A DNA stretch of 11,395 bases, from contig CAMLNH010000049.1 in assembly GCA_946481355.1 (NCBI GenBank), positions 1-11,395 on the forward strand. The letters run 5' to 3'. Source of the stretch: an uncultured Curvibacter sp. (lineage in GTDB: Bacteria; Pseudomonadota; Gammaproteobacteria; Burkholderiales; Burkholderiaceae). Positions 1 through 10,734 of the stretch are shown here, piece after piece (positions within the stretch are counted from its first letter, which is position 1; every line of letters starts with the position of its first letter). The translations under genes were made by a program, and so were the position numbers. The notes beneath the pieces are model-generated. The model ran no database searches. It was not told where the DNA came from and saw nothing but the letters and a program-made list of their open reading frames with translations.

Positions 1-1593
1 ATCGCGCGCAGCCATGCGCTGGAGTTCCTGCTCGTGGGCCTGGCCGGCGGGGTGCTGGGGGTGGCCCTGGGCTGGGCCGTGCACCATGTCTTCGTGCTGC
101 TGCTCGCGGGTCTGGTGGATGCGGCCCTGCCGGCACCCGGTCTCTGGCCAGTCTTCTTCGGTCTGGGCGTGGGGCTCACGCTGATCCTGGCCTTCGGCCT
201 GCCGCCCGTGCTGCAACTGGCCCAGGTGCCGGCGCTGCGTGTGATCCGGCGTGATCTGGGCACGCTGCGGCCCATGTCCGTCGGCGTGCTCGCGCTGGGC
301 GTGGTGGGTTTTGCCGTGCTGCTGCTGGCAGCGAGCAGCGATCTGAAGCTCGGGCTCATCACCGTGGGCGGCTTTGCTGGCGCGGTGGCGGTGTTTGCCC
401 TGGCCAGCTGGGGCGCGGTGGCCGTGCTGCGCAAAGTGGTGCGTGAGAACACCGCGCCGCGCTGGCTGGTGCTGGCCACGCGCCAGCTCTCGGCGCGGCC
501 CATCTATGCGGTGCTGCAGGTCAGCAGCCTGGCCGTGGGCCTGCTGGCGCTGCTGCTGCTGGTGCTGCTGCGCACCGACCTCATCCAGAGCTGGCGCCAG
601 GCCACGCCGGCCAACGCGCCGAACCGCTTCGTCATCAACGTCCAGCCCGACCAGGGCGAGGCCTTCCAGCGTCAGCTGCAGCAGGCGGGTGTGCAAGGCT
701 ACGACTGGTTTCCCATGATCCGCGGCCGCCTGGTGGCCGTGAACGGCAAGCCCGTGCAGGCACAGGATTACACCGACGAGCGCGCGCAACGCCTGGTCGA
801 ACGCGAGTTCAACCTCTCGCACAGCGCGCAGCCGCCGGCGCACAACCCCATCGTGGCCGGTCGCTGGACGCCCGAGGACCGCGACGGCATCAGCATGGAG
901 GACGGCATCGCCAAGACGCTGAACCTCAAGCTCGGCGACAAGCTGCGTTTCGACATCGCGGGTCTGCAGCACGAGACCACCATCACCTCGCTGCGGGAAG
1001 TGGACTGGGGTTCGATGCGCGCCAACTTCTTCGCGCTCTATCCCGTGAGCCAGATGCCGGAGCTGCCGGCGACCTACCTCGCCGCGCTGCGCGCGCCGCC
1101 GCAGCCCGGTTTTGACAGCGCGCTGGTGCGCCAGTTCCCCAACATCACCGTGGTGGATCTGAGCGCCACGCTGGCCCAGGTGCAGCGTGTGCTGGATCAG
1201 GTGAGCCGCGCGGTGGAGTTCCTCTTCGGCTTCACGCTGGCCGCCGGGCTGGTCGTGCTGTTCGCGGCCGTCACGGCCACGCGCGAGGAGCGCGCGCGCG
1301 AATACGCGGTGATGCGTGCCGTGGGCGCGGGCAGCGGCCTGCTGCGCCAGATGCAGCGCGCCGAGCTGGCCGGCGTGGGCCTGCTGGCAGGCGGGCTCTC
1401 GGCCCTGGTCTCGGGCGTGGTGGGCTGGGCGCTGGCGCGCTATGCCTTCAACTTCGAGTGGACGGTGAGCTGGTGGCTGCTCCCGGTGGGCGCCTTGAGC
1501 GGCGCCGTGCTGGCCTGGCTGGCCGGCTGGTGGGGCCTGCGTGCCGTGCTGCGCCGTCCCGTGGTGCAGACCCTGCGCCAGGCAGCGAGCTGA
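1..1593 (+). CDS. ABC transporter permease, FtsX/YbbP-like, 5' truncated by window
   Basis: The frame is open from base 1 to the TGA at 1591-1593, giving the last 530 residues; the true start lies outside the window. The protein has hydrophobic segments at the start (about residues 8-70 and 95-140), then a membrane segment near 165-190. An extracytoplasmic stretch of about 200 residues resembling a MacB-type periplasmic core follows. A C-terminal FtsX domain (about 400-525) has three membrane helices and the cytoplasmic motif EYAVMRAVGA between the first two, typical of FtsX/LolC-type permeases. This four-plus-four helix arrangement with a C-terminal FtsX repeat matches the YbbP branch, whose members are usually about 800-850 residues and pair with a YbbA/LolD-like ATPase. 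The partner would be expected just upstream. The substrate cannot be read from the sequence; the family handles lipoproteins, lipids or envelope export. No downstream gene appears co-transcribed with it. Confidence 0.9.
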   Translation: MARSHALEFLLVGLAGGVLGVALGWAVHHVFVLLLAGLVDAALPAPGLWPVFFGLGVGLTLILAFGLPPVLQLAQVPALRVIRRDLGTLRPMSVGVLALGVVGFAVLLLAASSDLKLGLITVGGFAGAVAVFALASWGAVAVLRKVVRENTAPRWLVLATRQLSARPIYAVLQVSSLAVGLLALLLLVLLRTDLIQSWRQATPANAPNRFVINVQPDQGEAFQRQLQQAGVQGYDWFPMIRGRLVAVNGKPVQAQDYTDERAQRLVEREFNLSHSAQPPAHNPIVAGRWTPEDRDGISMEDGIAKTLNLKLGDKLRFDIAGLQHETTITSLREVDWGSMRANFFALYPVSQMPELPATYLAALRAPPQPGFDSALVRQFPNITVVDLSATLAQVQRVLDQVSRAVEFLFGFTLAAGLVVLFAAVTATREERAREYAVMRAVGAGSGLLRQMQRAELAGVGLLAGGLSALVSGVVGWALARYAFNFEWTVSWWLLPVGALSGAVLAWLAGWWGLRAVLRRPVVQTLRQAAS

Positions 1594-1615
1594 TTGCTAT
1601 TGTTTTTGTAGCAAT
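1593..1615. repeat. Short inverted repeat at the permease stop codon, possible terminator
   Basis: ATTGCTA at 1593-1599 and TAGCAAT at 1609-1615 are perfect 7-base inverted arms around a 9-base T-rich loop, and a T-G wobble can extend the stem. The left arm begins on the last base of the permease stop codon. There is no T-run after the stem, so classical rho-independent termination is weak on the plus strand. I recall closely similar GCTATT-(T-rich)-TAGC elements scattered between genes in Comamonadaceae, so this may be one copy of an interspersed intergenic repeat. Confidence 0.55.
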
Positions 1616-1641
1616 TGATTGACCGGCAGGGCTGGGATAAT
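1615..1641 (+). promoter_or_regulatory. Candidate sigma70 promoter of the truncated haemoglobin gene
   Basis: GATAAT at 1636-1641 is a good -10 box. TTGATT at 1615-1620 is a possible -35 with a short 15-bp spacer; TTGACC at 1619-1624 is closer to consensus but only 11 bp away. Transcription started about 7 bases after the -10 would begin at or next to the ATG at 1648, and no convincing Shine-Dalgarno sequence precedes that ATG. Confidence 0.4.
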
Positions 1642-1647
1642 CACGCC

Positions 1648-2052
1648 ATGACTTCTGCCGTGCCTACCCAACCCGCCACCCCTTTCGAATGGATCGGTGG
1701 CGAAGACAAGATCCACGCCCTGGTCGAGCGCTTCTACGACCTCATGGACCTCGAGCCCGGCTACAAGGAACTGCGCGCCGCGCACGGCAGCACGCTGGGC
1801 GATGCACGGCAGAAACTCTTCTGGTTCCTCTGCGGCTGGCTCGGCGGCCCCAACCACTACATCGAACGTTTCGGCCACCCGCGCCTGCGCGCGCGCCACA
1901 TGCCTTTCAAGATCGGCCTCGTGGAGCGTGACCAGTGGCTGGCCTGCATGGATCAGGCCATGGGCGAGGTCGGTATCGATGAAGAGTTGCGCGGCAAGCT
2001 GCGCGAGTCCTTTTTCGGCACTGCCGACTGGATGCGCAACACACCGGGCTAG
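1648..2052 (+). CDS. Group II truncated haemoglobin
   Basis: The 134-residue protein is a cytoplasmic haem globin of the truncated 2-over-2 fold, a usual length for this family. Members bind O2 or NO and are linked to NO/ROS detoxification or oxygen handling. Visible family marks are the B-helix pair Phe29-Tyr30 (Tyr B10), the GWLGGP segment at 63-68, the proximal haem ligand His84 in RARHMPF, and Trp97 in DQWLACM, the G8 Trp of group II. Start choice: the ATG at 1648 begins an N-terminus of normal length. The frame stays open upstream to a TTG at 1615, but those codons overlap the promoter-like sequence and are unlikely to be translated. The gene stands alone, with its own candidate promoter and a possible weak terminator after it. 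Family assignment is firm; the physiological role is not visible. Confidence 0.93.
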   Translation: MTSAVPTQPATPFEWIGGEDKIHALVERFYDLMDLEPGYKELRAAHGSTLGDARQKLFWFLCGWLGGPNHYIERFGHPRLRARHMPFKIGLVERDQWLACMDQAMGEVGIDEELRGKLRESFFGTADWMRNTPG

Positions 2053-5366: not shown

Positions 5367-5911
5367 GCGCAGAGACGCCAGAGGCCTTGCTCAGCCGTGT
5401 GGCCCAGGGACGGGTGGACGCCATGGAAGCCTTCTACCGCCAGTTCGAACGCACCATCTACCGTTTTGCGCTTTCGCGCCTGTCCGACCCCTTCGATGCG
5501 GCCGAGGTGCTCAACGATGTGATGCTCGACGTCTGGCGGCAGGCCGGTCGCTTCGAGGGACGCTCGGCCGTGTCCACCTGGCTGATCGGCATCGCGCGGC
5601 ACAAGGTGCTGGACCGCCAGCGTGTGCGCGGCCGGCGTGAGATGGAAGAGCTGAGCGAGGAGATCGAAGACGAACAGCCCGGCGCCGAGGCGCTGATCCA
5701 CGAGGCGCAGGAGGCCGAGCGCATGCGCCGCTGCATGGACAAGCTCGGACCCAACCACCGTGAGGTGGTGCACCTGGCCTTTTACGAGGACTGGGGCCAT
5801 GAGCAGATTGCGCAGCTCATGCAGTGTGCGCCGGGCACGGTGAAGTCGCGCATGTACCACGCCAAGGAGGCGCTGAAAAAATGCCTGGAACGATGGATGA
5901 AACAGAACTGA
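5363..5911 (+). CDS. ECF-type sigma-70 family RNA polymerase sigma factor
   Basis: The 182-residue protein has the two-domain build of an extracytoplasmic-function sigma factor. Sigma region 2 occupies about residues 23-90: FYRQFERTIYRFALSRL, then the DAAEVLNDVMLDVWR helix, and a region 2.3/2.4-like stretch with STWLIGIARHKVLD. An acidic linker (about 95-118) follows. Region 4 lies at about 121-175, with a helix-turn-helix reading GHEQIAQLMQ-CAPGTVKSRMYHAKEAL. It would direct RNA polymerase to its own promoter set and is expected to be held by the membrane anti-sigma factor encoded next. Translation probably depends on coupling: its ATG overlaps the stop of the preceding gene and no clear Shine-Dalgarno is seen. 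Its end overlaps the anti-sigma gene by 31 bp. Family is certain; the ECF subgroup and targets cannot be assigned by eye. Confidence 0.95.
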   Translation: MSAETPEALLSRVAQGRVDAMEAFYRQFERTIYRFALSRLSDPFDAAEVLNDVMLDVWRQAGRFEGRSAVSTWLIGIARHKVLDRQRVRGRREMEELSEEIEDEQPGAEALIHEAQEAERMRRCMDKLGPNHREVVHLAFYEDWGHEQIAQLMQCAPGTVKSRMYHAKEALKKCLERWMKQN

Positions 5912-6474
5912 GGGCCGAGCTGCCCTGGCTGGTCAACGGCAGCCTGGATGCGGCGCAGCGCGAGCGCGTGCAGGCGGCTGTCCATGCCGCGCCCGGCCTG
6001 CAGGACGAGCAGCGTTTCCTGGAACGCCTGCGTGCCGCCGTGCGTGAGGACGATGCGGCCGGCCCTGGCGAACTGGGCTGGCGCCGCCTGCGCCGGCAGA
6101 TCGAGGCCGAGTCACAGACCGCCGTGCAGCAGCGCCAGCGCCGCCGCTGGCAGGGCCTGGCGATCGCGGCCTCGGTGCTCATGGCCGCGCAGCTGGCCTG
6201 GTTCTGGAGTGCGGCACCGCACGACGACGGGCACTACATGCCCATGGCGGCACCACCCGTGGTGCCCGGGGCCGTGGTGTTGCAGCTGCGCTTCCGTCCC
6301 GAGGCGCCGCTGGCGCAGATTGAAGCGCTGCTGCAGCGCCAGGGCCTGCGTGTGATTGATGGCCCCGGTGCCGCCGGTGTCTGGCGCGTGCAGCTGGAAG
6401 GCGGTGACGCCGCCCAGGTGCTGCAGGCCCTGCAGGCTGAACGCAGCTTGATTGAATCCGCGGCGCGGGATTGA
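5881..6474 (+). CDS. Membrane anti-sigma factor with subtilase-propeptide-like periplasmic domain
   Basis: The 197-residue protein has three parts. Residues 8-56 resemble the cytoplasmic anti-sigma (zf-HC2-like) fold, with the ELPWLVNGSLDAAQRERV opening, but without the zinc-ligand His-x3-Cys-x2-Cys set: the equivalent region reads VHAAPGLQDE. One membrane helix spans about 90-109, after a basic stretch, so the C-terminus should be periplasmic. Residues about 130-195 read like a subtilase propeptide or Inhibitor-I9-type domain: a first strand VVLQLRFRPEAP, a helix AQIEALLQRQGLRVID, a GVWRVQL strand and a helix with a final SLIESA. The start ATG 5881 is preceded by AAGGAGG (5864-5870) inside the sigma gene; ATG 5893 is an alternative. 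It overlaps the sigma gene by 31 bp and lies 2 bp before the protease gene. Its role as regulator of the adjacent sigma factor is strongly implied by position; the propeptide resemblance is by eye. Confidence 0.85.
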   Translation: MPGTMDETELRAELPWLVNGSLDAAQRERVQAAVHAAPGLQDEQRFLERLRAAVREDDAAGPGELGWRRLRRQIEAESQTAVQQRQRRRWQGLAIAASVLMAAQLAWFWSAAPHDDGHYMPMAAPPVVPGAVVLQLRFRPEAPLAQIEALLQRQGLRVIDGPGAAGVWRVQLEGGDAAQVLQALQAERSLIESAARD

Positions 6475-6476
6475 CC

Positions 6477-7760
6477 ATGGCGCGCCTGCTGCTCGGTGTG
6501 GGGCTCTTGTCGCTGGTCGGGCTGTCGGCCGGTGCCCAGCAGGCCACGGGCGCGTCTGCACCCGGCACGCCACCGGCTGTATCCCGTCCGACAACGCCCG
6601 ATCCGCGCGCCACCCTGCCGCGCCCACGCCTGGAGCCCGCGCGTCGGCCCGAATTCCCCACCTTGCAGCCCGGTCCGCTGGCCCAGCCTGTGGCCACGCA
6701 AGACGCCGAGCCGCTGGAGCTGCTCATGCTGGACGCCAGCCTGGAGCAGGCCCAGGCCCGACAGGCCCAGCTGCAGGCCGCGGGTCTGCGCCTGCTGCGT
6801 CGTGCGGTGCTGCCCGGCGTGGGGGGCGTGCTGTCCACCTACCGTGCCCCCGATGCGGCGCGCTACCAGCAGTTCAGTGCACCGGGCGCCGCGGCCGTGC
6901 CCAACCACCGCTACGAGGCCCTGGGGGAGGCAGCGCCGGCGGCTGACGCGGGCCATGCGCGCGTGGCGCAGCGCCTGCGCGACATCGTGGCCTGGCCCCC
7001 TGAGGGCGCGGCCTGCCGCAGCATGCCGCGCATCGGCCTGATCGACACGCCGGTGGAGCCCGGCCATGCGGCCCTGCTGGGCAGCCGCATCGACACCGTG
7101 AGCCTGCTGCCGGCCGGTCTGCGCGCCGCCAGTGCCGAACACGGCACGGCCGTGGCCTCGGTGCTGGTGGGCCAGCGCGGCACGCCCGCCCTGCTGCCGC
7201 AGGCGCGGCTGCTGGCGGTCTCGGTGTTCTTCCAGCGCGAGGGCCGGGTGTACACCACGGCCGAGCTGCTGATCCGGGCCCTGGACCATCTGGTGCTGGC
7301 ACGCGTGGACGTGATCAACCTCAGCCTGGGCGGGCCGGACAACCGCCTGCTCGAACAGGTGGTCCGGCGCGTGCGTCAGCTGGGCATACCGCTGGTGGCC
7401 GCCGCCGGCAATGGCGGGCCGCAGGCGCCGCCCAGCTACCCGGCGGCCTACGAGGCCGTGATCGCGGTGCTGGCCGTGGATCTGGCGGGCGAGCCCGATG
7501 CACGGGCGCCGCGGGGCGAGCACCTGGACTATGCCGCGCCGGGTGTGGACATCCCCGTGGCCCAGCTCGGCGCGGGGCTGGTCTACCGCAGCGGCAGCTC
7601 CTACGCCGCGCCTTTCGTCACGGCCCTGCTGGCCGCGGGGCTGGGCGAGGAGTCGTTGCGCAGCGCGGCCCGCGATCTGGGCCCGCCCGGTCACGACGCG
7701 GTCTATGGCTGGGGCCTGGTGCGCAGCAGTCCGGCCTGCGCAGCCCGACCCGGACCCTGA
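6477..7760 (+). CDS. Secreted subtilisin-like serine protease (family S8)
   Basis: The 427-residue protease has an N-terminal signal peptide (cleavage near AGA at 20), an Ala/Pro-rich spacer (about 22-72) and a propeptide-like segment (about 78-150, with QAQLQAAGLRLLRRAVLPGVGGVLSTY). The catalytic domain follows: Asp190 in RIGLIDTP, His222 in EHGTAVAS, oxyanion Asn312 in AAAGNGG, and nucleophile Ser375 in the GSSYAAP box (usually GTSMAAP). All key residues are present, so it should be active. The domain is compact, with no C-terminal P-domain or anchor, and ends in a Pro-rich tail after GWGLV. It is probably periplasmic or secreted. ATG 6477 is preferred over an in-frame TTG at 6471, which overlaps the anti-sigma stop. 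It sits 2 bp after an anti-sigma gene whose periplasmic domain resembles a subtilase propeptide, suggesting that the protease acts in the signalling circuit or on the neighbouring secreted proteins. Confidence 0.93.
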   Translation: MARLLLGVGLLSLVGLSAGAQQATGASAPGTPPAVSRPTTPDPRATLPRPRLEPARRPEFPTLQPGPLAQPVATQDAEPLELLMLDASLEQAQARQAQLQAAGLRLLRRAVLPGVGGVLSTYRAPDAARYQQFSAPGAAAVPNHRYEALGEAAPAADAGHARVAQRLRDIVAWPPEGAACRSMPRIGLIDTPVEPGHAALLGSRIDTVSLLPAGLRAASAEHGTAVASVLVGQRGTPALLPQARLLAVSVFFQREGRVYTTAELLIRALDHLVLARVDVINLSLGGPDNRLLEQVVRRVRQLGIPLVAAAGNGGPQAPPSYPAAYEAVIAVLAVDLAGEPDARAPRGEHLDYAAPGVDIPVAQLGAGLVYRSGSSYAAPFVTALLAAGLGEESLRSAARDLGPPGHDAVYGWGLVRSSPACAARPGP

Positions 7761-7839: not shown

Positions 7840-9021
7840 ATGAATGCCACACTTCGTCCCGTCGCCCTGGCTGCCCTGTGCGTGGCCGGCAGTTCGCCCT
7901 TGCTTGCCGCCGTTGACTACGTGGACATCCGCAACGCGGGTATCCACATCAACGACGGGCGTGTCGTGGTGGAACCGGTCAACAACCGCTACGCCAAGAT
8001 CACGACGCCCGAGGTGAACTACCACGTCGAGATGAAGGCCGGCTGCAAGGGCCTGAACCAGAAGCTGGAGAGCACCTTCGTGGCCTTCGGCAACGCCGGC
8101 ATGAACGGCAGCGTCGTGGAGGCCAACCCCGGCATGGTCACGGTGCCGGTCAGCCACCGCGGCAACAAGGAGATCGGATATACCGCGGCACTGCTCAAGA
8201 TACCCACGGCTCAGATCGGCGGTTCGCTCGATCCGGTGCAGGTCTGCAACGCCTGGCTGGACCAGCGTCTGGGTCAGGGCGCCAGCCTGATGCAGATCTG
8301 GACCAAGGACCACACCGTGCTCAAGCCCGTCACGCTCTCGGCCGTGGCGGCCTGTGGCAACAACACGGACTACCGCACCGACACCATGCAGCACCAGCTC
8401 ACCATCGTCTGCAAGGCCGGCACGGTGGGGGGTGGCATCGGTGGCATCCAGGCCCAGCAACCCAAGCCGCCGTCCCAGGGCGGGCCCAACGCTTTCGCCA
8501 AGGTGATGCAGGTGACCAAGGTGGAGCTCAAGCCTCTCACGCCCGAAGTGACGGGCAACTGCCCGGCCAAGGTGAAGTTCCGCGTCGAAGTCACGGCCGA
8601 CGCCGCCGGCACGGCGCAGTACCAGGTGCGTTTCCCGCCGAATGCCAATACGCCGGAGCAGTCCTATGGCGGCCAGATCGTCTTCAACAGTGCAGGCATG
8701 CGGGCCACGCCGGCCATCGAATTCAACGCCGTCTCCGGCTACCCCACGGGTACGGCCGTGGTGGAGATCGTGAGCCACGGCAACAAGAAGGACTATGCGA
8801 ACTTCAAGGTGCAGTGCGTGCAGGCCCAGGGGCCGGGCAGCATCCAGTTCGCGCCCAAGCCGGGCGGCAACCCCATCAACAAGGTGCAGCCCAACACGCC
8901 GGAACCCAAGCCCGGGCTGAACATCCAGGCCCAGCCGGTGCAACCCAAGCCACCGGGCAATATCCAGGCCCAGCCGCTGGATCCCAAGCCGGCACCGGCC
9001 CGGGCCCTGCAGTCCAACTGA
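7840..9021 (+). CDS. Secreted six-cysteine two-domain protein with proline-rich repeats, function unknown
   Basis: The 393-residue protein has a signal peptide (cleavage after LLA at about 23). The mature part has two beta-rich domains. Residues about 24-195 hold Cys69, Cys136, Cys172 and Cys191; about 217-328 hold Cys241 and Cys326. The even cysteine number per domain suggests disulfides formed outside the cytoplasm. The domains are joined by a linker starting IQAQQPKPP (203-211), and the protein ends in a proline-rich tail (about 333-390) that repeats IQAQP...PKP. ATG 7840 is preceded by AAAGGAAA at good spacing; codons upstream in the same frame lie inside the protease gene and are not part of it. 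No catalytic motif or known family is recognised. Position after the S8 protease and sigma/anti-sigma genes suggests a major exported product, a protease substrate or a surface-bound partner of the barrel protein, all inferred. Confidence 0.8.
   Translation: MNATLRPVALAALCVAGSSPLLAAVDYVDIRNAGIHINDGRVVVEPVNNRYAKITTPEVNYHVEMKAGCKGLNQKLESTFVAFGNAGMNGSVVEANPGMVTVPVSHRGNKEIGYTAALLKIPTAQIGGSLDPVQVCNAWLDQRLGQGASLMQIWTKDHTVLKPVTLSAVAACGNNTDYRTDTMQHQLTIVCKAGTVGGGIGGIQAQQPKPPSQGGPNAFAKVMQVTKVELKPLTPEVTGNCPAKVKFRVEVTADAAGTAQYQVRFPPNANTPEQSYGGQIVFNSAGMRATPAIEFNAVSGYPTGTAVVEIVSHGNKKDYANFKVQCVQAQGPGSIQFAPKPGGNPINKVQPNTPEPKPGLNIQAQPVQPKPPGNIQAQPLDPKPAPARALQSN
8842..8991 (+). repeat. Degenerate tandem proline-rich repeats encoding the C-terminal tail
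   Basis: The tail carries irregular units starting I-Q or V-Q and ending P-K-P, with two clear 13-residue copies: NIQAQPVQPKPPG and NIQAQPLDPKPAP. The DNA word ATCCAGGCCCAGC occurs exactly at 8923-8935 and 8962-8974 (39 bp apart) and again in the inter-domain linker at 8446-8458, so the linker and tail probably share an origin by duplication. Such repeats are prone to copy-number change. Confidence 0.7.
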
Positions 9022-9042: not shown

Positions 9043-9807
9043 TCAGCCCAGCGTGCGTGCCATGGCCGTGGCCGCTGCATGCAGCTGCGGCACCTGCTCG
9101 ACGGCACGCGCCAGTGACATGCGCGCCGCGGGCGCCTGCAGTGCCAGGGCTGAGCGCACGGCGCGGCTGCCGTTGGCTTTGACGGGCACGGCCGCGCAGA
9201 CCAGGCCCTCGACGAATTCCTCCGCATCCACCGCATAGCCCTGGCGCACGATCTGCGCCAGCTCTGCTTCGAGCGCGGCGCGCGCAGTCAGCGTGGTGGG
9301 TGTGTAGCGCGTGAGCGGCAGGGTGTCGAGCAGGGCGCTGCGCTGCGCGGCCGGCATATAGGCGAGGAAGAGTTTGCCGCTGGCGGAGCAGTGGATGGGC
9401 ACACGCGTGCCGGCCTTGAGCTCCATGCGCAGCGGGAAGGCGGCCTCCACGCGGTCCAGGTAGATGACTTCGGCGCCGCTGAGGGCGGTCAGGTTGCAGC
9501 TTTCGCCCACGTCGTTGACCAGCTGGCGCAGCACCGCATGGCGCACGCCGCGCTGGGTGTTGGCGCCCAGCACGTTCTCGGCCAGGCTGACCAGGCGCGG
9601 CGCCGGGGCGTAGAGCTTGCTGCCCGGCTCGCGGGCCAGCAGACCGCCGGTTTCCAGCTGCGCGAGCATGCGGTGCACGCTGGGCTTGGGCCAGCCGGTG
9701 TGCCGCACCGCGTCCATCAGGCTGAAGGGCTCGCCGCTGGCGCAGACCTGGTCCAGCAGCTCCAGCACGCGCAAGGTGGGGGCCAGTTTTTCCATTTCTT
9801 TGTTCAT
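9043..9807 (-). CDS. IclR-family transcriptional regulator
   Basis: The 254-residue protein has the standard IclR length and layout. A winged helix-turn-helix occupies about residues 9-70: the LRVLELLDQV helix, the recognition region WPKPSVHRMLAQLETGGLL, and a wing ending KLYAPAPRL. The effector-binding domain (about 85-250) contains the RVPIHCSASGKLFLAYMP stretch that lines the ligand pocket in this family. It reads away from the dehydrogenase/monooxygenase pair, with 90 bp between start codons, the usual arrangement for a local regulator of a catabolic operon; it may also control itself. ATG 9807 is taken as the start; a second in-frame ATG at 9795 is possible, and neither has a strong Shine-Dalgarno. 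It converges with the six-cysteine protein gene, leaving only 21 bp. The ligand is unknown, but the neighbouring enzymes suggest an alcohol, ketone or related carbonyl compound. Confidence 0.93.
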   Translation of the reverse strand: MNKEMEKLAPTLRVLELLDQVCASGEPFSLMDAVRHTGWPKPSVHRMLAQLETGGLLAREPGSKLYAPAPRLVSLAENVLGANTQRGVRHAVLRQLVNDVGESCNLTALSGAEVIYLDRVEAAFPLRMELKAGTRVPIHCSASGKLFLAYMPAAQRSALLDTLPLTRYTPTTLTARAALEAELAQIVRQGYAVDAEEFVEGLVCAAVPVKANGSRAVRSALALQAPAARMSLARAVEQVPQLHAAATAMARTLG

Positions 9808-9897
9808 AGTTTCGAAATTCGAGACGAATTCAGATATTTTTCGAGATTAGATAGTGTCAGAGTCTATGCTCGCGGCCAATAAACACAAGTGGAGACC
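9808..9897. promoter_or_regulatory. Divergent promoter/operator region between iclR-type gene and dehydrogenase
   Basis: This 90-bp stretch is markedly AT-richer than its surroundings. It holds TTTCGAAA (9810-9817), a perfect palindrome, overlapping AATTCG-AGA-CGAATT (9816-9830), an inverted repeat around a 3-base centre; together they are a plausible IclR-family operator. Rightward, TCGAGA (9841-9846) and TATGCT (9865-9870) with an 18-bp spacer could be the dehydrogenase promoter. Leftward, CTGACA (complement of 9855-9860) could be the -35 of the regulator gene, its -10 lying near 9831-9838. The palindromes would then sit between the leftward promoter and the regulator start, consistent with autorepression. 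GGAG at 9891-9894 is the ribosome site for ATG 9898. Confidence 0.5.
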
Positions 9898-10734
9898 ATG
9901 ACCATCCCGTTCAAAAACGCCGTGCTCACGGGCGCCTGCGGCGGCCTGGGCCAGGCGCTGGCGCGCGAGCTGATCGCGCAGGGTGCGGCTGTGGCCCTGG
10001 TGGGCCTGAACCGCCCGGTGCTTGATGCACTGGTCGCGCTGGCGCCCGAGCGTTGCACCGTCTACACGCCTGATGTGGCCGATGCCGCCGCCATGCAAGC
10101 CTGCGCGCAGGACTGGACCGCACGCCACGGTGTGCCCGACCTGCTGATCGCCAACGCGGGCGTGGCCGGGGGCTTTGACACCGCGCAGGCCGATGACCTG
10201 GCCGTGATGCGCCGCATGTTGGAGATCAACGTGCTGGGTGTGGCCACCACCTTCCAGCCGCACCTGGCCGCCATGCGCGCGCAGGGGTGCGGCGCCCTCG
10301 TGGGCGTGGCCAGCATCGCGGGCTGGCGCGGCATGCCAGGCAACGGCGCCTATTGCGCGAGCAAGGGCGGCCTGATCCGTTATCTGGAGAGCCTGCGCGC
10401 CGAGCTGCGCGGCACGGGCCTGAGCGTGCATACCGTGAGCCCGGGCTATTTGCGCACGGCGCTGACCGCCGGCAACCGCTTCGCCATGCCGGGCCTGATG
10501 GAGCCCGGGGACGCAGCGCGCGCCCTGCTGGCGGGCGTGGCGCGCGGGCGTGAGCACATCGTGCTGCCGCGGCGCATCGGCTGGCTGTCACGCGTTTTGT
10601 CTTTGCTGCCCGCCGCCTGGCAGGACCGCATCCTGCTGGGCCAGCCGCGCAAGCCGCGTGTGGGCGAGGCGGGCGCCACGGCCATTCCCGGTTTGTCTGC
10701 CGGCGATCCGTCTTCTTCCGATACCTCACGCTGA
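9898..10734 (+). CDS. Short-chain dehydrogenase/reductase (SDR)
   Basis: The 278-residue protein is a classical SDR, an NAD(P)-dependent oxidoreductase acting on an alcohol/ketone pair in the cytoplasm. The Rossmann cofactor motif is TGACGGLG (Thr11-Gly18). NAG is at 86-88, structural Asn111 sits in EINVLG, and the catalytic residues are Ser139 (VASIAG), Tyr152 and Lys156 (YCASK). SPGYLRT follows at 181-187. The C-terminal 30 or so residues are a Pro/Gly/Ser-rich tail beyond the SDR core. ATG 9898 is chosen because GGAG precedes it; an in-frame GTG at 9889 has no ribosome site. It starts the operon divergent from the IclR gene and is followed after 11 bp by a flavin monooxygenase. An SDR beside a Baeyer-Villiger/FMO-type enzyme often serves alcohol-to-ketone-to-ester degradation, but the substrate is not readable here. 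Confidence 0.93.
   Translation: MTIPFKNAVLTGACGGLGQALARELIAQGAAVALVGLNRPVLDALVALAPERCTVYTPDVADAAAMQACAQDWTARHGVPDLLIANAGVAGGFDTAQADDLAVMRRMLEINVLGVATTFQPHLAAMRAQGCGALVGVASIAGWRGMPGNGAYCASKGGLIRYLESLRAELRGTGLSVHTVSPGYLRTALTAGNRFAMPGLMEPGDAARALLAGVARGREHIVLPRRIGWLSRVLSLLPAAWQDRILLGQPRKPRVGEAGATAIPGLSAGDPSSSDTSR

Follow-up and report, generated by a model that had tools for sequence, protein, structure and literature searches.

An anti-sigma factor with a predicted subtilase-prodomain-like domain and a protease-class-associated juxtamembrane linker encoded beside a subtilase in Curvibacter

We analyzed an 11,395-nucleotide stretch of an uncultured Curvibacter sp. (assembly GCA_946481355.1, contig CAMLNH010000049.1, forward strand), hereafter the window, in which the genes of an extracytoplasmic function (ECF)-type sigma factor, an anti-sigma factor and an S8 subtilase follow one another on the + strand, with the sigma and anti-sigma genes overlapping (Table 1). 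The anti-sigma factor ends in a C-terminal domain (CTD) that is predicted to fold like a subtilase prodomain and is joined to a predicted transmembrane helix by a short linker. The arrangement is real and widespread, and the linker carries a motif that differs with the class of protease encoded nearby. A preliminary description, made from the letters of the window alone, had proposed that the CTD is a decoy propeptide for the neighboring protease; we find cutting of the linker by that protease to be the better-supported reading. The DNA reference for the anti-sigma model started at 5884, and model numbering equals Met1 numbering minus one.

Table 1. Features of the window, their positions and the evidence or remarks attached to each
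Feature	Position	Strand	Evidence or remark
ECF-type RNA polymerase sigma factor, 182 aa	5363..5911	+	Sigma70_r2 9e-14, Sigma70_r4_2 1e-12, TIGR02937 2e-29
Anti-sigma factor, 197 aa (ATG at 5881)	5881..6474	+	N-terminal part, transmembrane helix, short linker, prodomain-like CTD
Predicted transmembrane helix of anti-sigma factor, model residues 92-109	6157..6210	+	AlphaFold2 block pLDDT (predicted local distance difference test) 54-63 (low), hydropathy
Juxtamembrane motif Y-M-P-M-A, candidate P4-P1/P1' site	6235..6249	+	Class-wide linker pattern and position; proposed cleavage
Anti-sigma CTD, beta-alpha-beta-beta-alpha-beta, subtilase-prodomain-like	6274..6471	+	Pfam, profile-profile, AlphaFold2, Foldseek, structure comparison
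S8 subtilase, 427 aa, hydrophobic signal-like N-terminus	6477..7760	+	PF00082 5e-22, catalytic residues, N-terminus check
Subtilase's own N-terminal prodomain, residues 77-148	6705..6920	+	AlphaFold2 model, PDB match
Subtilase catalytic domain	7029..7757	+	PF00082, conservation, AlphaFold2 model
Companion gene, 370 aa	4254..5366	+	Homologs in 41 of 80 genome loci
Companion gene, 672 aa	2225..4243	+	Homologs in 37 of 80 genome loci
393-aa protein 3' of subtilase	7840..9021		No Pfam/NCBIfam match; weak hits only in loci
Flanking FtsX-like permease	34..1593
Flanking bacterial-type globin	1615..2052
Flanking IclR regulator	9043..9807	-
Flanking short-chain dehydrogenase	9889..10734

Relatives were collected by a genome scan that used anti-sigma patterns only, which found 145 relatives; 80 loci were kept, by their titles mostly from Proteobacteria with some from Nitrospirota. 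Where at least 1.3 kb of downstream DNA was present, the subtilase gene lay directly 3' of the anti-sigma gene and on the same strand in 66 of 73 loci (65 by script plus L061, whose open frame starts farther upstream and which was read from its coordinates), and the general lack of a nearby subtilase that the preliminary description had allowed for is thus not what homologous loci display. The remaining seven comprise L016 and L056, with the subtilase upstream; L052, L062 and L066, with a caspase-domain gene directly after the anti-sigma gene; L077, with a caspase-domain gene 2.9 kb downstream; and L006, which has neither protease and whose contig title gives a coverage of 0.88. A sigma gene is present in 82 of 83 mapped sequences, is missing in L070 and lies on the other strand in L056. 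The possibility of an isolated gene pair was rejected because the arrangement recurs across genome loci. Further sampling covered 399 Burkholderiales genomes (46 with a match) and 369 genomes of the wider class (23 matching the Arg-type alignment described below), and loci were re-read with longer flanks and Pfam checks before protease classing. We dropped repeats of other loci (L083-L086, L119, L127, L141, L163-L165, L182, L188), the two plasmid loci used for comparison (L001 and L002), four rows whose linkers were identical and one whose linker was empty. Of the 144 distinct linkers, 111 counted as subtilase-linked, 17 as caspase-linked (15 loci) and 16 as neither; nine of these 16 rows end at the end of the contig or stretch (L080, L009, L011, L012, L021, L041, L123, L172, L174).

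Across 56 sequences of the neighboring subtilase, Asp190, Asn312 and Ser375 are invariant and His222 is conserved in at least 90%. The whole AlphaFold2 model has as its best PDB match unautoprocessed pro-subtilisin E (3whi_A, E 3.6e-21 over 370 columns), whereas the best NCBIfam match of the catalytic domain, the QhpE subtilisin-like protease NF049966, was rejected as the equivalog because its score of 82.1 bits falls under the 165-bit cut-off. The pre-catalytic segment is modeled as strands at 77-86, 105-111, 118-123 and 141-148 with helices at 89-101 and 127-133 (block pLDDT mostly above 90), and the likeness of this run to the anti-sigma C-terminus, remarked on in the preliminary description, is upheld by a predicted topology identical to that of the CTD. 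Signal-like N-termini occur in 96 of 111 subtilases; the check takes the best Met 5' of the catalytic domain, so that start codons are provisional for the subtilases and for the caspases discussed below.

For the CTD itself, AlphaFold2 places strands at 131-137, 155-159, 166-171 and 190-195 and helices at 143-152 and 176-185 with a block pLDDT of 91-95, in a run that used an alignment of 20 sequences and gave a whole-model pTM (predicted template modeling score) of only 0.37. The beta-alpha-beta-beta-alpha-beta ferredoxin-like fold is thereby confidently predicted, so that the strand and helix order first noticed in the last residues of the protein holds as a prediction and the predicted fold fits that of propeptides. 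At the level of family profiles, PF22148 (Fervidolysin_NPro-like) matches 44 of 78 family CTDs at E values up to 1, the best being 2e-6, and any other Pfam family matches at most four; the 78 are the window plus 77 of the 80 genome loci, with L006, L009 and L041 excluded. The CTD of the window has no PF22148 match, and Pfam gives no domain in its anti-sigma C-terminus. When ten CTDs were re-scanned singly, five matched PF22148, all under the 21-bit cut-off (best L031, 20.5 bits). The scan of the subtilase prodomains with PF22148 covered 59 of 70, with 11 of a second type left out.

Profile-profile comparison of the CTD with two prodomain sets gave scores of 20.7 and 20.8 on trimmed alignments, the second spanning only 30 columns; shuffled-column controls reached maxima of 16.8 and 19.1, with none of 200 attaining the real score in either case, and reversed controls gave 8.9 and 10.5. 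The profile-profile check suggested in the preliminary description is therefore favorable against shuffles but not in the hhalign probabilities, which are low (2.5% and 6.8%, or 18% and 13% for the trimmed alignments). On the strength of the PF22148 counts and the shuffled controls, we rejected chance resemblance of the CTD to prodomains. A Foldseek search with the CTD model returned EpiP propeptide chains as its top three rows (best E 1.2e-2) and no match at E 0.001 or below, PDB sequence searches with the anti-sigma factor and with the CTD alignment yielded nothing convincing, and in the structure comparison non-protease ferredoxin-like folds tie with prodomains. Such ties with many unrelated folds favor the view that the CTD is an ordinary ferredoxin-like periplasmic sensor, with the protease a co-regulated target gene and some other protease performing site-1 cleavage. 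This view leaves unexplained why PF22148 is by far the commonest match, and we regard it as unlikely.

The fold and the conserved gene pairing are also what would be expected if the CTD were a decoy or inhibitory propeptide lodged in the protease active site, the level of free protease being read through its capture or cutting. In the structural alignment, however, the final residue of the window CTD falls on residue 71 of the BPN' prosegment (77 residues) and on residue 70 of POIA1 (76 residues; lengths taken from entry title and chain length), so that the inhibitory tail, which fills S1-S4 in propeptides and I9 inhibitors, is missing from the window protein. From the first strand to the C-terminus, 76 of 110 subtilase-linked relatives are at most five residues longer than the window CTD; 34 are more than five residues longer, a count in which loops and tails are not separated, so some may have a tail. 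The same CTD moreover occurs beside caspase-type peptidases. We consider an active-site decoy improbable and, since the window protein has no tail, rejected it as the main reading. What survives of the earlier interpretation is a propeptide-like fold, a link to a subtilase and, by inference, a role resembling site-1 cleavage; a decoy blocking the active site, or one cut in the manner of a propeptide, finds no support, and the conserved candidate cut site lies in the juxtamembrane linker rather than in the CTD.

In a minority of loci a caspase-domain peptidase replaces the subtilase or sits near an anti-sigma gene with the same CTD (L052, L062, L066, L104, L147-L150, L156-L158, L162, L166 and others), and in 10 of the 17 caspase-linked rows its gene is next door on the same strand. 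A caspase search matched 148 of 300 genomes; of loci L087-L116, 30 in number, L104 alone carried this anti-sigma factor in the fetched stretch. Signal-like N-termini were found in all 10 caspase genes checked, from nine loci, and because of these and the corresponding N-termini of the subtilases both proteases would act outside the cytoplasm. No match to PF22148 comes from any of the 17 whole Arg-type anti-sigma proteins, a result that would fit drift after loss of the subtilase partner or simply greater divergence. Several of these caspase-domain peptidases carry Sel1 repeats, and at L148 and L150 each stretch holds two CTD-bearing anti-sigma-like genes, both showing the Arg motif, with a single caspase gene close by.

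The linker between membrane helix and CTD differs with the class of protease. Among subtilase-linked linkers, 97 of 107 show a hydrophobic-x-x-[LAMV]-[SGA] pattern (100 of 110 once rows had been reclassified), against a mean of 35.2 and a maximum of 48 in 1000 shuffles, and the fourth place of the pattern is nearly always Leu or Ala. In the window this pattern reads Tyr-Met-Pro-Met-Ala, with a candidate cut at Met121|Ala122 in model numbering. Subtilisins favor a large hydrophobic residue at P1 and a hydrophobic or aromatic one at P4; the letters at predicted P4 and P1 are constrained by the search pattern itself, and Ala, frequent at predicted P1 in subtilase-linked linkers, is less typical for subtilisins. 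An Arg-[GSAN] pair 4 to 16 residues before the CTD is found in 16 of 17 caspase-linked versus 7 of 110 subtilase-linked linkers (Fisher 5e-14, a value that counts sequences rather than events and is uncorrected for descent). This pair is present in 14 of 14 caspase-linked linkers when the three loci whose caspase was found after the motif had been noticed are removed, and in 10 of 10 whose caspase gene is the immediate neighbor on that strand. Anywhere in the linker, it is found in 15 of 15 caspase-linked versus 25 of 108 subtilase-linked sequences. Whole-linker shuffles gave a mean of 8.8 of 15 for the caspase group, with 15 reached in none of 2000, while the 26 Arg-[GSAN] pairs observed in the subtilase group are fewer than the shuffle mean of 36.3.

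Arg122 is one of three invariant columns among 17 Arg-type proteins that share 16-31% identity with the first. In an alignment of all linkers, the caspase-group Arg of 11 of 15 rows shares a column with the Arg of 27 subtilase rows (the R of YRTL); what separates the classes is therefore the Arg-[GSAN] pair within the zone preceding the CTD, not that column alone. The predicted cut lies a median of nine residues from the first CTD strand in the subtilase group and eight in the caspase group, the first match being used where a caspase-linked linker has several. Judged by comparison of these sequences, each linker motif has persisted through long divergence in the company of its own protease class. 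Non-animal homologues of caspases are reported to cleave after basic residues (PMC8283722; PMC6426788). A linker difference that follows protease class is left unexplained if the CTD is an ordinary sensor.

The linker motif could instead be a signal-peptidase site, and small residues do come after it. A Pro two residues before the small residue suits signal peptidase poorly, however, and is often found here (QPLG, MPMA), while the Arg beside caspases is unexplained on this account as well. We therefore hold it to be very improbable, even though site-1 cutting of RsiP in Bacillus by signal peptidase has been reported (PMC8844934).

We thus return to the neighboring protease as the enzyme that cuts the linker. 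On balance, and by a narrow measure, we think it probable that the sigma factor, the anti-sigma factor and a dedicated secreted site-1 protease constitute an envelope-to-gene switch in which the CTD serves as dock or sensor. The N-terminal part of the anti-sigma factor would hold the sigma factor at the inner membrane, and the secreted protease of the adjacent gene would have the periplasmic linker (Y-M-P-M|A in the window) as its substrate. The prodomain-like CTD would act as a dock or gate, sitting where the protease's own prodomain sits during maturation; lacking the active-site tail, it would leave the protease cleft free for the linker. In a ferredoxin-like fold the sheet order is 4-1-3-2. 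From this established topology, rather than from a model of the complex, the start of strand 1 would adjoin the end of strand 4, where a propeptide tail enters the cleft, and a docked CTD could therefore offer the linker, not a tail, to the active site. Once the linker was cut, a short stub would remain in the membrane for the general site-2 protease, whose action would free the sigma factor. The Gln at model residue 103, within 6157-6210, is invariant in the 20-sequence anti-sigma alignment, and as a separate observation this residue of the predicted membrane helix is possibly a weak point for site-2 cleavage.

A more tentative proposal, which we regard as possible though doubtful, concerns origin: the anti-sigma factor may have acquired a subtilase prodomain and now hold the mature neighboring protease on its own linker, the whole forming a portable "built-in site-1" cassette. 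Replacement of the protease by an exported, Arg-specific caspase-type enzyme would have been matched by a change of the linker's cut residue to Arg, and the CTD would have drifted from the prodomain family.

Several points weigh against linker cutting by a CTD-docked neighboring protease. The two linker patterns and the zone were defined once the linkers had been inspected, and within its zone the subtilase-type pattern also fits 5 of 17 caspase-linked linkers (97 of 110 subtilase-linked). Four sequences (L077, L151, L157, L160) entered the 17-sequence alignment partly for their Arg motif and because no subtilase had been detected; all but L151 later proved to have a caspase gene nearby. In 7 of the 17 caspase-linked rows the link is looser, the caspase gene not being directly adjacent: it lies at 2.9 kb in L077, on the other strand at 0.7 kb in L147 and at 3.6 kb in L160, and at 1.4-2.5 kb, one on the other strand, in the two anti-sigma rows each of L148 and L150. 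On a linker-free tree of 122 rows, which left out rows lacking a protease call, protease class needs three changes, and the starred branches force only one; the class difference may therefore rest on one to three events, and the tree offered too few pairs for an informative pair test. Since the CTD persists beside caspases, it must have some use besides docking on a subtilase.

Two sets of loci tell against the same reading and in favor of the CTD as an ordinary sensor. Seven usable loci (L006, L131, L133, L151, L178, L180, L181) contain neither protease in the DNA read. For L178, L180 and L181 (in longer form L198-L200) no S8 or C14 gene was detected in 12 kb, and here the CTD is present with unrelated downstream neighbors (CPSase or Gfo/Idh oxidoreductase). 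The plasmid loci L001 and L002 (Paracoccus and Shinella) keep a sigma factor, a putative anti-sigma factor and a related subtilase but have a different anti-sigma C-terminus; the search of the plasmid collection gave only distant subtilases. In L001 and L002 the subtilase gene is divergent from the sigma gene and from the hypothetical, probably anti-sigma, gene, whose product has a Cys-containing C-terminus. Finally, the cutting and binding steps are ones that we infer, as are the signal, the topology in the membrane and the site-2 step.

Control of anti-sigma factors by proteolysis is long established, with RseA-DegS-RseP as the example of regulated intramembrane proteolysis. The present system would parallel it in its membrane anti-sigma factor, an expected periplasmic cut near the membrane and an ECF-type sigma factor, and differs in that an S8 or C14 enzyme is encoded beside the anti-sigma gene and the CTD is prodomain-like. 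DegS and RseA are treated in PMC10028731. RsiV and RsiP of Bacillus are likewise cut at site 1 on a signal (PMC4183432, PMC8844934), but RsiP is cut by signal peptidase, whereas here a specific protease gene lies next door. In Craspase (Cas7-11/Csx29, Csx30, CASP-sigma), a caspase-like CHAT peptidase cuts a sigma-inhibiting protein and so lifts the inhibition of an ECF sigma factor; the cutting of Csx30 by caspase-like Csx29 is the nearest caspase precedent (PMC10028731). Craspase is RNA-guided; the anti-sigma factor here differs in having a predicted membrane helix, and the peptidases in having export-like starts. Near the sigma genes of ECF54, subtilase and CHAT-domain genes are conserved and have been proposed to act without an anti-sigma factor (reviewed in PMC8999054), whereas here an anti-sigma factor is present and carries a propeptide-like domain. 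From fervidolysin-type prodomains (PF22148) and I9 inhibitors such as POIA1, which the CTD resembles in predicted fold and in the family matches given above, it differs by residing on a membrane anti-sigma factor rather than on a protease, and in the window by its missing tail. We did not find this architecture described in the titles and abstract beginnings of the top results from the open-access literature; an earlier mention in the main ECF classification is possible.

To our knowledge, the site-1 protease and its trigger are unknown for many ECF systems. Here, gene position would name the protease and a short motif the cut site. The linker resembles a likely substrate of such a protease, and together with the prodomain-like CTD this points to a dedicated trigger protease for gene expression that can be swapped for another. 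If the proposal is true, the pro-piece of a protease has been reused as a sensor or dock, protease class and substrate site change together within one signaling module, and exported bacterial caspase homologues gain a concrete candidate substrate.

Upstream of the sigma gene, the 672-aa and 370-aa companion products have no Pfam or NCBIfam match above cut-off, and PDB searches with them led nowhere; their homolog counts (Table 1) were tallied by hand from the match list. The 393-aa protein is possibly lineage-specific, given its weak hits in the loci. Because both companion genes are repeatedly found close to the sigma gene, five genes may make up the conserved unit, and the 370-aa-type gene is present in two copies at some loci, for example L031 and L045.

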